A DNA stretch of 51,951 nucleotides, from assembly GCA_014874415.1 (NCBI GenBank), contig JACWAI010000114.1, positions 1 to 51,951 on the forward strand, written 5' to 3'. The position numbers and the translations under genes were made by a program. The stretch is from Nitrososphaerales archaeon. Its GTDB lineage: Archaea > Thermoproteota > Nitrososphaeria > Nitrososphaerales > Gagatemarchaeaceae. The notes below the pieces were generated by a model. It was not told the DNA's origin. It made no database searches and worked only from the letters and a program-made list of their open reading frames with translations. Shown here one piece after another: positions 2,087 through 5,884 of this stretch; the stretch's first letter is position 1; each line of letters opens with the position of its first letter.

Positions 2087-3454
2087 GTGGAGGCAGTTCA
2101 GATAGACGAACGGGCGGTGATCGCCAGGTTCGAGGCAAGGACGCGGTCCTCGGCCAGGATGTTCCGCAGGGCCGCCTCGGTGACTCCTGGCGGTGTCAGC
2201 GCCGGAATCAAGTTCTTTGAGCCTTACCCACTCTTCATGGAACGGGCAGGCGGTTCCCATATCTGGGACGTCGACGGGAACGAGTACGTCGACTACCTGA
2301 TGAGCTACGGGGCGATAATCCTCGGCCACGGGGACGACGTCGTCAAAGGCGCCATTGATTCGGTCCTGAAAGGATCTGGCACGACGGTTCTCGGAACTCC
2401 TACAAGGGCGGAAGTCGAGCACGGCGAGACTCTCAGGGACATCTACCACCCGGACGGCATGGTCAGGTTCACGAACTCGGGCCTGGAGGCGACCCTCCTG
2501 GCCACCCGGCTAGCGAAAGCCTTCACAGGCAGGAGAAAGGTCGCGAAGTTTGAGGGGCACTACCACGGAGCAGTCGACCGCCTACTTTTCAGTTACGCTC
2601 CGCCGCTGGGGAGAATAGGGAACAGAGCTTCCCTCGCGCCCTTTGCCGACAGCGCGGACGTGGATGAGGGCATCCTCTCCGATTCCCTCGTCCTAGAGTT
2701 CAACGACTGGGAGTCGACGGAAGAGAGGCTCCGCCAGCATGCGAAGGAATTGGCTTGCGTGATAATGGAGCCTTTCGAGGAGGGCGTGATCCCGGGGGAC
2801 AGGAAATTCATGGCCGACCTCAGGAAGCTCACGAGGGACCTCAAGGTCCCGCTGATCTACGACGAGGTGAAGACAGGGTTCAGGGTCAGGTACGGCGGCG
2901 CTTCGGAGTTCTACTCGATCGTGCCTGACATCACCTGCCTGGGCAAAATCATAGGGGGCGGGCTCCCCATCGGCGCCGTAGTGGGGGACGCAGAGATCAT
3001 GGGGCTCCTCGACCCCCGGAGAGACGCCAGTTCGAGGGTCTTTCATTCGGGGACTTTCAACGGCAACCCACTTTCAATCTCGGTCGGGAAGGCGACGGTC
3101 GAGGCCCTTGGCCGCCGAGGCAGATTCGACACCCTGCTGGCACGGACAGACAGCCTGAAGCGCGGCATCTCTTCGGCTTTGAACCAGCGAGACATCCATC
3201 ATAATATGGTAGGAGAAGGGGGGATGTTCAACTTCTACCTGACAAGTAACAGAGTGAAGAACTATCGCGACGTCAAGAGGTCTGACCTTCGCTCGAGGCG
3301 GCTGCTTGACATCGACCTCATTTCCCGTGGGGTCTACCTGAAGCCAGAGAATAGATTTTGTCTTTCTCTCGCCCACACAAACGATGACGTCAAACTGACC
3401 ACCGAGAAGTTCGAGGAAACGATGGACGCAGTTGTTCCGTCATCAGTTTCCTAA
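2087..3454 (+). CDS. PLP-dependent class III aminotransferase, glutamate-1-semialdehyde aminomutase-like
   Basis: This 455-residue enzyme belongs to fold-type I, class III aminotransferases and resembles glutamate-1-semialdehyde aminomutase (HemL) most. Features seen: TPGGVSAG near the start, DGNEYVDY, GTPTRAEVEHGE, KFEGHYHGAVD, IYDEVKTGFR with the Asp that contacts the PLP ring nitrogen, and LGKIIGGGLPIGA with the Schiff-base lysine. No other tetrapyrrole gene is nearby, so the true substrate may be a different amino acid or semialdehyde. It stands alone, with divergent genes to its left and the PurD-like gene 105 bp downstream. The family is certain; the exact reaction is not. Confidence 0.85.
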   Translation: MEAVQIDERAVIARFEARTRSSARMFRRAASVTPGGVSAGIKFFEPYPLFMERAGGSHIWDVDGNEYVDYLMSYGAIILGHGDDVVKGAIDSVLKGSGTTVLGTPTRAEVEHGETLRDIYHPDGMVRFTNSGLEATLLATRLAKAFTGRRKVAKFEGHYHGAVDRLLFSYAPPLGRIGNRASLAPFADSADVDEGILSDSLVLEFNDWESTEERLRQHAKELACVIMEPFEEGVIPGDRKFMADLRKLTRDLKVPLIYDEVKTGFRVRYGGASEFYSIVPDITCLGKIIGGGLPIGAVVGDAEIMGLLDPRRDASSRVFHSGTFNGNPLSISVGKATVEALGRRGRFDTLLARTDSLKRGISSALNQRDIHHNMVGEGGMFNFYLTSNRVKNYRDVKRSDLRSRRLLDIDLISRGVYLKPENRFCLSLAHTNDDVKLTTEKFEETMDAVVPSSVS

Positions 3455-3559: not shown

Positions 3560-5884
3560 ATGAAGTTTCTCTTCGTGACTTTCGAGAGCCTTTCAGCCGA
3601 CTTGGCGTGGCAATTGAAGAAGGAGGGGCACGAGGTAAAGATGTACTGTCACGGGCAGGGTGAGAAGGACGTCGGACTTGGCTTCTTCGAAAAAGTGGAG
3701 GAGTGGGACTCGCTAAGAGACTGGGCGGACGTCGTCATCTTCGACGACATCGGGTTCGGGACGAAGGCGGAGCAGCTGAGGAACGAAGGCAAGTTTGTAG
3801 TGGGTGGAAGCCCTTACACCGACAAGCTGGAACTCGACAGAGAGTTCGGTCAATCAGAGCTCAATTCAGTTGGCGTTGACGTATTGCCGAGCTGGAATTT
3901 CACTTCGTTTGACGATGCCATCGAATTTGTGAAGAAGAACCCCGATCGGTATGTGCTAAAGCCGAGCGGGAAAGCGCAAAACGAAAAGGAGTTGCTGTTC
4001 ATTGGACAGGAAGCGGACGGGAGAGACATTCTTCAGGTCCTCGAGCACTACAAGGTGAACTGGTCGAAGAAGATCAAGGAGTTCCAGATGCAGAAGTTCG
4101 CCGAGGGGGTAGAAATCGCCGTTGGCGCCTTCTTTAACGGAAAAGAGTTCGTAATGCCAGTCTGCGTCAATTTCGAGCACAAAAGGCTCTTTCCTGGCGA
4201 ATTGGGGCCCAGTACGGGCGAGATGGGTACAGCCATCCTGTGGACACGCGACAGCCCTGTATTTGAGAGGACTTTGCTTAGAGCCAAGGAGAAGCTTGCT
4301 GCGAGCAAGTACGTCGGCTACGTAGATATCAATTGCATCGCCAATGTGAAGGGAATCTGGCCGCTTGAATGGACTTGCTTTGATGCCGATACGGAGATAC
4401 TCACCAAGTCAGGATGGAAGAGGTACTTCGAATTCGAAATAGGGGAAGAGACACTTGCGATAAACCCAGAAAATCGCGAAATCGCCTGGAAACGAATCAC
4501 GAACAAGCTCGTGAAGGACTACGCTGGGAAAATGATTAGGATCGGAGCCAAGGGCAAGAAGCATTCAGCCGTAGACGTCCTAGTCACCCCAGAACACAGG
4601 TTACTGGTCAGCACCTACGGAGGTCTGAGGATTGTCCGCGCAGACTCGATTCCGATTCATAAAACGAAACTTATCCGGACGGGGGTATTCAGGGGGGAGG
4701 GCCCAGCCTTCGTGGAGGTGCCAGAGTATGTTAGCGAACATGTCTATAGGAACGGAACAGTACTACGAACGGCGTACCCCGCAGTTCAGGTCAAGACCGA
4801 GTCCTTCGCAAAGTTTCTTGGCATTTTCCTGGCCGAAGGCTATTCGTCGGGAGATTTCGTCAAGATCTATCAGAGTCGAGACAACCCTCATTGGGAAGAT
4901 ATCAGTGGGATTCTGGATGATTTTCCCTTCAAACACACAGTCCAAACCGATGGATTCCAGATAAGCTCTGTTCAACTATGCCGTTTCATTAGGCAACTAG
5001 GGTTAGAAGGAGTCCATGCCGAAGAGAAGTTTGTACCACCCGAATTCAAGGAGCTAGATACAATATGTCTTGATGCATTAATGAACGCATTCGCTCTTGG
5101 AGATGGGCATCGCCATAAGAGAACAAAGCAGCTCTATCACCTCACTTCGTCGAAGAGACTTGCCGATGACTTTCAGGAGATGATCATCAAGACGGGAAAG
5201 GTGGCCAACATGAGAGTACAAAGACAAGCAGGGACCAAATCTATTGGCGACTACACAAGAAAGAATGATATCTACGTGCTTTCTCTCCGGAATGTCAAGA
5301 AGGATTACTCTCTCGACTCACGAGTGATAAGCGATGTAAGCTATCGGGGAATCGTATGGGATGTCGAAGTTGAAGACTGGCACACTCTTTTGGTAAGGCG
5401 AAATGGAAAGCCGTTCTGGAGTTTAAACTGTCGTTTTGGGTACCCAACTATCAGCATCCAGATGGAAGGGATAACCAGCGAATGGGGCCAGTTCCTCAAT
5501 GATATCGCCCGAGGAACCGACACTCAATTGAAGACGAAGAAGGGGTACCAGGTGGGAGTCGTGATCTCGATCCCACCTTTTCCGTTCGAGGACGAGAAGG
5601 CGTTCAAGAAGTACTCCGAAGGCGCGACTATCCTATTCAGGCGCCAGAGCCTCGACGGGATCCACATCGGTGAGGTCAAACTGGAGGAGGGGGACTGGCA
5701 TATCGCGGGGAACTCGGGCTACGCACTGATTGTCACTGGCTCGGGAGCCACGATGTCTGACGCCATTGACAAGGCATACCAGAACGTCAAGAACGTCATG
5801 ATACCGAACATGTTCTACAGGAGCGACATAGGCCAGCGATGGACCCACGACAGCGACAAGCTTCTAAGTTGGGGCTACATCTAG
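3560..5884 (+). CDS. PurD-like ATP-grasp ligase interrupted by an in-frame intein
   Basis: The 774-residue precursor holds a host protein of 423 residues (272 + 151) split by a 351-residue intein. The host length matches phosphoribosylamine-glycine ligase (PurD), and the ATP-grasp order is similar: N-terminal Rossmann-like part, YVLKPSG (ATP-binding lysine), GVEIAVGAFFNG, LGPSTGEMGT, and spliced PLEWT-CRFGYP. PurD usually has E-x-N-x-RFGDPE at that last place. Here the metal-binding Asn and the DPE are replaced, and the N-terminal GGREHA motif is missing, so the substrate may differ. The gene looks less GC-rich than its neighbours, in line with possible transfer. The insertion lies in the conserved active-site strand, so the enzyme should be inactive until spliced. 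No other purine gene is adjacent. Confidence 0.85.
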   Translation: MKFLFVTFESLSADLAWQLKKEGHEVKMYCHGQGEKDVGLGFFEKVEEWDSLRDWADVVIFDDIGFGTKAEQLRNEGKFVVGGSPYTDKLELDREFGQSELNSVGVDVLPSWNFTSFDDAIEFVKKNPDRYVLKPSGKAQNEKELLFIGQEADGRDILQVLEHYKVNWSKKIKEFQMQKFAEGVEIAVGAFFNGKEFVMPVCVNFEHKRLFPGELGPSTGEMGTAILWTRDSPVFERTLLRAKEKLAASKYVGYVDINCIANVKGIWPLEWTCFDADTEILTKSGWKRYFEFEIGEETLAINPENREIAWKRITNKLVKDYAGKMIRIGAKGKKHSAVDVLVTPEHRLLVSTYGGLRIVRADSIPIHKTKLIRTGVFRGEGPAFVEVPEYVSEHVYRNGTVLRTAYPAVQVKTESFAKFLGIFLAEGYSSGDFVKIYQSRDNPHWEDISGILDDFPFKHTVQTDGFQISSVQLCRFIRQLGLEGVHAEEKFVPPEFKELDTICLDALMNAFALGDGHRHKRTKQLYHLTSSKRLADDFQEMIIKTGKVANMRVQRQAGTKSIGDYTRKNDIYVLSLRNVKKDYSLDSRVISDVSYRGIVWDVEVEDWHTLLVRRNGKPFWSLNCRFGYPTISIQMEGITSEWGQFLNDIARGTDTQLKTKKGYQVGVVISIPPFPFEDEKAFKKYSEGATILFRRQSLDGIHIGEVKLEEGDWHIAGNSGYALIVTGSGATMSDAIDKAYQNVKNVMIPNMFYRSDIGQRWTHDSDKLLSWGYI
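4376..5428 (+). mobile_element. Intein with LAGLIDADG homing endonuclease, in the PurD-like gene
   Basis: Precursor residues 273-623 form a full-size intein of 351 residues. It begins with Cys in CFDADTEILTKSGW (block A) and has the block B TPEH near 343. Two LAGLIDADG-type helices follow, FLGIFLAEG near 419 and LMNAFALGDG near 507. Block F is VWDVEVEDWHTLL near 599, and the intein ends in WSLN before Cys+1 of the host (CRFGYP). The terminal Asn is present, but the usual penultimate His is Leu. Removing it restores a continuous ATP-grasp sequence, which is strong internal evidence. The DNA is visibly AT-richer than its surroundings, as expected for a recent arrival. Both LAGLIDADG motifs keep an acidic residue, so the nuclease may still be active. 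Confidence 0.93.

Follow-up and report, generated by a model that had tools for sequence, protein, structure and literature searches.

The segment 4376-5428 of the window, the whole 51,951-nucleotide stretch of DNA analysed here, is very probably a cis-splicing intein of class 1 that harbours a LAGLIDADG homing endonuclease and is inserted at a position (site A) in the gene of a PurD-like ATP-grasp enzyme. The element is probably selfish, able to splice and still mobile, and its homing cycle appears to link viruses, DPANN archaea and Nitrososphaerota. Sequence comparison established the anatomy of the intein, occupied and empty alleles of its host gene, a second insertion site (site B), endonuclease decay in relatives, and same-site relatives in Diapherotrites and in viruses. 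The features of the open reading frame are the following:

3560-5884, plus strand: open reading frame of 774 aa, PurD-like precursor
3560-4375, plus strand: N-extein of the PurD-like ATP-grasp enzyme, 272 aa; GARS_A match, aligning with residues 1-272 of intein-free homologues
4205-4228, plus strand: GPSTGEMG; site B, empty in the window, would come after base 4228
4376-5428, plus strand: class 1 LAGLIDADG intein at site A, 351 aa, Cys1 to Asn351
4376-4378, plus strand: Cys1 codon, first splicing nucleophile, invariant in 10/10 aligned inteins
4583-4597, plus strand: block B, VTPEH (Thr and His); T71 and H74 invariant in 10/10
4814-4843, plus strand: LAGLIDADG motif 1, FLGIFLAEGY, with acidic residue
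5081-5110, plus strand: LAGLIDADG motif 2, MNAFALGDGH, with acidic residue
5354-5386, plus strand: block F, VWDVEVEDWHT; His336 invariant in 10/10
5423-5428, plus strand: intein C-terminus Leu-Asn, without penultimate His
5429-5881, plus strand: C-extein, 151 aa, first residue Cys+1; GARS_C match
5882-5884, plus strand: stop codon of the open reading frame

Translation of 4376-5428 confirmed the in-frame block of 351 residues, running from Cys to an Asn before Cys+1, that a sequence-only reading of this DNA had proposed, and the TPEH string and two LAGLIDADG helices named there were located as VTPEH, FLGIFLAEGY and MNAFALGDGH. In the alignment of ten inteins V70, T71, P72 and H74 of block B and the terminal Asn were likewise invariant. 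The nucleophiles of a class 1 intein are present (Cys1, Asn351 and Cys+1), both helices retain an acidic residue (LAEGY and LGDGH), and the block F position that holds Asp or Cys was Asp in the site-A rows and Cys in the site-B rows; the usual block F residues of class 1 inteins are named in the available part of PMC4031507. The usual penultimate His is absent, with Leu in its place. Deletion of the insert was predicted to give a host of normal length, and the joined exteins indeed comprise 423 aa, the same length as the intein-free homologues.

The insert alone scored 25.5 bits against the NCBIfam model intein_Nterm, barely above the cut-off of 24.5, and with the whole precursor as query the score was 19.0, below it. 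In Pfam the ends of the open reading frame matched GARS_A and GARS_C above the cut-offs and matches of the middle to Hint, intein and LAGLIDADG models stayed sub-threshold, LAGLIDADG_3, Hint_2 and Intein_splicing all falling short of the curated cut-offs for the window copy. A profile built from ten relatives matched solved inteins, e.g., PI-PkoII and TliVMA. The AF2 model of the insert (10-row alignment) had a pLDDT of 86.5, and its first 16 Foldseek matches were all inteins (TM 0.5-0.6), followed by the endonuclease I-DmoI; the best match was 7qsu (E 1.8e-17, TM 0.60, 19% identity). The predicted structure is that of a HINT splicing fold with a nested LAGLIDADG domain. The resemblance to inteins is not due to chance, given the intein_Nterm score, the AF2 and Foldseek matches to inteins, and the site being empty in 14 genomes of the family. 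Profile, alignment, AF2 model and Foldseek matches back the reading of the insert as a full-size LAGLIDADG intein; the LAGLIDADG label is right, but the domain is degenerate, as its sub-threshold LAGLIDADG_3 score indicates.

The host is called PurD-like and not PurD because it does not reach the cut-off of the PurD equivalog TIGR00877 (288 bits): the precursor scored 90.2 and an intein-free homologue 104.6 bits. A second gene of the window's genome, on C107, gave 165.4 bits, also under the cut-off, and the host is not the best PurD match of its genome. The AF2 model of the intein-free homologue L061 had a pLDDT of 91, and its first 15 Foldseek matches were GAR synthetases. In an alignment to PurD chains, the string corresponding to EFN-x-R-F/L-GDP contains site A and the one corresponding to GPNTGGMG contains site B; both strings presumably line the ATP and metal site of PurD-type enzymes. 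The GARS_A and GARS_C matches, this alignment and the GAR synthetase-like model agree with the earlier assignment of a PurD-like ATP-grasp host with the insert in a conserved string. In a sample of 300 genomes of the phylum, the one genome with the host gene at E 1e-40 was that of the window, and named host relatives belong to Micrarchaeota, Diapherotrites, Planctomycetota, Elusimicrobia, Peribacter-type bacteria, Halobacteria and others; the gene appears to be a patchy accessory gene in the phylum. A class-III aminotransferase gene lies directly 5' of the host (window 2087-3454). Neighbour clustering of 60 named host loci gave no interpretable neighbour common across phyla, and the idea of reading the function of the host from a conserved operon was rejected; the one apparent neighbour family was the antisense of the host gene.

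Occupancy of the host gene was searched in 61 genomes, 37 from the window's family and 24 from other families of the order. The gene was present in 28 of the 37, with no match in nine, some of these incomplete, and in none of the 24. Eight of the 28 family genomes carry an intein at site A (six distinct sequences), six carry one at site B, and 14 are empty, including G027, counted as empty from the genome search, and one genome with two host copies. The segment is not a normal domain of all homologues, the sequence being contiguous in the 14/28 without intein. Site B, 49 codons upstream of site A, holds a different intein. The spliced length was 423 aa in all 27 hosts extracted. Among the relatives of the Diapherotrites genome (n = 53), 11 had the host gene, one filled at site A, two at site B and eight empty. 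The named collection of 60 loci, in which several genomes overlap the family set, comprised seven with site A filled, four with site B filled and 49 without intein; the +1 residue at site A in these 49 was Ser (16), Cys (15), Pro (10), Ala (6), Thr (1) or Met (1). Mutual exclusion of the two sites is not claimed: they were filled together in 0/39 hosts (28 family and 11 Diapherotrites-side), for which chance alone gives 0.095. The extensions of L117 and L120 were judged by eye not to be inteins, since the reading frame continues; in L120:1-2055 a PurD-like start leads in frame into what looks by eye like part of a P-type ATPase, probably in a chimeric contig. In one Nitrososphaerota clade of seven genomes the +1 residue is Pro at site A and Asn at site B, a possible parallel to the haloarchaeal MCM, where Pro at +1 blocks successful splicing and not endonuclease recognition (PMC10643990, available part).

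The penultimate residue was Gly in 25 of 27 cellular inteins (window included), Ser in G024, Leu in the window and His in none; 13 of these ends were set by host flanks, and these 13 also lack His, and 14 were cut with a pattern favouring Gly, Ser or Ala. In the viral inteins an end was found in 70/80 with a pattern that required R-x-x-G shortly before the terminus; the penultimate residue was Gly in 58 (53 GN, 5 GQ) and in no case His. The viral inteins L130, L136, L177 and L199 seem to end in Gln, not Asn. The replacement of His by Leu had been considered odd, and the Leu is real and confined to the window among the 27 cellular inteins, but the missing His is a trait of the family (27/27 cellular inteins examined). 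Inteins that splice without a penultimate His are described in the available parts of PMC4031507 and PMC5050341; in the latter, a splicing phage intein has penultimate Gly, the block F His can stand in for the missing His, and a change of the native Gly to His slowed splicing. The penultimate Leu of the window intein could slow or block Asn cyclisation.

Both acidic LAGLIDADG residues are kept in the window, G024, G010 and L116. In G016 and G013 the first is lost and the second is Glu or Gly, and in G006 both are lost; the motifs point to a decayed endonuclease in these three relatives, which retain the splicing blocks. For the close pair G016-G013, with decayed motifs, dN/dS was 0.012 in the extein, 0.068 in the N-splicing part, 0.485 in the endonuclease and 0 in the last 28 codons. 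For the window and G024, a pair with dS at or close to saturation, pN and pS were 0.129 and 0.822 in the endonuclease, 0.182 and 0.687 in the N-splicing part, and 0.06 and 0.71 in the exteins. By these values the endonuclease of the window lineage is constrained, no less than its N-splicing part, and the selection on splicing blocks and exteins argues that the inteins splice. GC3 of the window intein was 0.54 as compared with 0.70-0.78 for its exteins; over the window, G024 and G010 (first 15 C-extein codons excluded) it was 0.54-0.61 vs. 0.64-0.78, in G016 and G013 the intein was nearly level with the exteins, and the values were 0.73 vs. 0.82-0.86 in the decayed G006 and 0.33 vs. 0.44-0.45 in L116. 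The use of GC3 as an arrival clock was dropped, the gap of the decayed G006 resembling that of the intact G010.

It had also been suggested that enzyme activity might depend on splicing conditions. As a regulatory switch, splicing would release the 423-aa enzyme from an inactive precursor under certain conditions, aided by the penultimate Leu. The insertion in a conserved ATP-grasp string, by which the unspliced enzyme should be dead, the restriction of Leu to the window among the 27 cellular inteins, and the strong effect of altering the penultimate residue on splicing of the phage intein (PMC5050341, available part) speak for such a switch. We consider it improbable, as half of the family host genomes (14/28) have no intein in the host gene, a different intein occupies a second site in relatives, and both the decay of endonucleases and the existence of relatives in another phylum agree with selfish homing. 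The suggestion is unsupported, and a selfish homing cycle is preferred because of the empty alleles, the endonuclease decay and the cross-phylum spread.

Evidence for this spread comes from the site-A locus of the Diapherotrites genome (L116), whose host is partial and begins near residue 49. Its intein is 53% identical to that of the window and its exteins 59%; for four relatives of the window's own genus the values are 43-52% and 87-91%, and for G024 77% and 89%. Contamination from the window lineage is argued against by the L116 host being 69-82% identical to 7/10 other hosts of its own side as compared with 59% to the window. At site B, the two Diapherotrites-side copies and three Nitrososphaerota copies are 56-62% identical in the inteins and 56-58% in the exteins. 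The codons TGT CGT TTT follow the intein in the window, G024 and L116 and are absent from the four other occupied cellular flanks and the nine empty flanks examined, the viral flanks L126 and L130 reading TGC CGT TTT; the T-ending codons may reflect composition. The window, G024 and L116 grouped with support of 79/67, 96/85 and 89/81 in three trees, from which G030 and G014, with site-A rows identical to others, were omitted. The AU test did not reject a single clade of the six Nitrososphaerota site-A inteins without L116 (p 0.188). An interphylum move of the intein is well supported by the identities and less so by the tree tests.

This AU result is what vertical inheritance can claim, with site A filled in the host ancestor of Nitrososphaerota and Diapherotrites and then emptied by many losses. 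Such a history is decidedly improbable, since intein identity does not track extein identity, either within a phylum or between phyla, the host gene was detected only in the window's own genome among those 300 of the phylum (E 1e-40), and same-site viral copies and common flank codons exist. That the intein is degenerate, has lost splicing through its Leu-Asn end and has broken the host gene is highly improbable: the penultimate Leu and the missed curated Pfam intein cut-offs would fit, but the frame is open, the nucleophiles, block B Thr and His and block F His are retained, the window and G024 exteins are under strong purifying selection (pN and pS given above), and a single host copy was found in the window's genome (G000).

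Scanning viral sequences with the intein profile yielded 250 relatives, of which the best 80 were kept and 23 of these placed in the tree. Ten of the best 80 (L121-L124 and L126-L131) were assigned by eye to ATP-grasp-type proteins with the intein at the site-A position. L121 matched Pfam GARS_A and GARS_C above the cut-offs and L122 matched both below them (GARS_C E 1.6e-7, GARS_A E 5.4e-4); the exteins of L123, L126 and L129 are 25-34% identical to those of the window, and those of L124, L127, L128 and L131 faintly resemble the host, as judged by eye. The cellular site-A inteins and the viral L121 and L122 formed one clade (100/100). Identities to the window were 44% for the intein and 48/48 for the exteins of L121, and 49% and 38/39 for L122. 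A virus-to-archaea direction is tentative: the trees are midpoint-drawn and contain 23 viral inteins from the best 80 of 250. A third insertion place, site C, was observed in viruses before TGEMG or TGEQG (L177, L199). Scans for the host protein gave three viral relatives with the cellular host alignment and 308 with the viral alignment A4 (tblastn E 1e-3); sites A and B were contiguous in all of the best 80 of these 308. Neither the four viral proteins tested nor the window received an ATP-grasp family name from PHROGs, and a terminase (Terminase_6N) was found in one of eight viral records tested, the contig of L126, and in none of the other seven. The L121 gene (2173-4524) comes directly after a structural-protein gene and is also downstream of one for a major head protein. 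PurD-like genes also lie beside virion genes in L201:4001-5290 (with portal) and L204:3001-4332 (weakly tail-lysin-like). The viral PurD-like proteins may modify virion or host components.

In the proposed selfish cycle Cys1 would form a thioester with the N-extein, which Cys+1 would take over; Asn351 would then cyclise, the block F His assisting in view of the penultimate Leu, and joining of the exteins would give the 423-aa enzyme. The endonuclease would cut site A of PurD-like alleles that lack the intein, with the occupied copy as template for repair of the gap, perhaps bringing along a little flanking sequence. Viral PurD-like genes would serve as reservoir or vector of the inteins. Tentatively, sites A, B and C may belong to one homing network shared by tailed phages, DPANN archaea and Nitrososphaerota, with PurD-like genes of virion modules as the reservoir that supplies inteins to archaeal copies again and again, and with one archaeal clade made resistant by its exchanged +1 residues (Pro at A, Asn at B).

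These results add an enzyme family with two archaeal intein sites and a third in viruses, and in close relatives endonucleases that are intact or decaying can be compared with empty alleles. Whether viruses carry inteins is debated, and with viral relatives at the same site the question becomes testable for archaea; resistance of the target site can be tested beyond haloarchaea in the clade that has Pro and Asn at +1.

Related inteins were observed in other proteins. One splits the Walker A motif, between GPPG and CGKT, of what looks by eye like an AAA-type ATPase in the window's genome (G000:C21:34611-35699, L049), and also in the relatives L050, L056 and L057. Others lie between SPTA and SGKT in the Walker A region of a helicase, which we take to be Ski2/Hel308-like (L048, L051, L052, L053); L048 has a second intein-like insert, by eye. 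In the window's archaeal family, further related inteins are in epimerase-like (L054, L055) and PHP-domain-like (L047) proteins, named by eye.

In a search of the open literature, no intein was found in a phosphoribosylamine or ATP-grasp host, which, for that literature, fits the earlier view that the host family is new as an intein home. One intein gene is given for 18 Thaumarchaeota genomes in a table of PMC10643990 (available part). TliVMA (7qsu/7qss), PI-PkoII (2cw7) and PI-PfuI (1dq3) have, like the window intein, a HINT fold with a nested LAGLIDADG domain, but the host enzyme and sites are different here and the penultimate His is missing. Cys1, the block B Thr and His, the terminal Asn and Cys+1 are shared with class 1 inteins as covered by the available part of PMC4031507. 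The RDF intein of mycobacteriophage Bethlehem gp51 (PMC5050341, available part) also lacks the penultimate His and, as in the window's intein family, is phage-borne; hosts of that type are mycobacteriophage proteins, whereas the ATP-grasp host here occurs in two groups of archaea as well as on viral contigs, and the window has Leu. A likeness in distribution exists with the Haloferacales MCM-a and MCM-d inteins, for which the available part of PMC10643990 reports several sites per gene, empty alleles, Pro at +1 when uninvaded and co-carried flank codons; the Haloferacales MCM is, however, essential and holds both inteins together in 38/129, whereas the PurD-like host is patchy and had A and B co-filled in no case. 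Inteins of this kind were known already; what is new is the host family with its sites, together with the apparent link of viruses to DPANN archaea and Nitrososphaerota.
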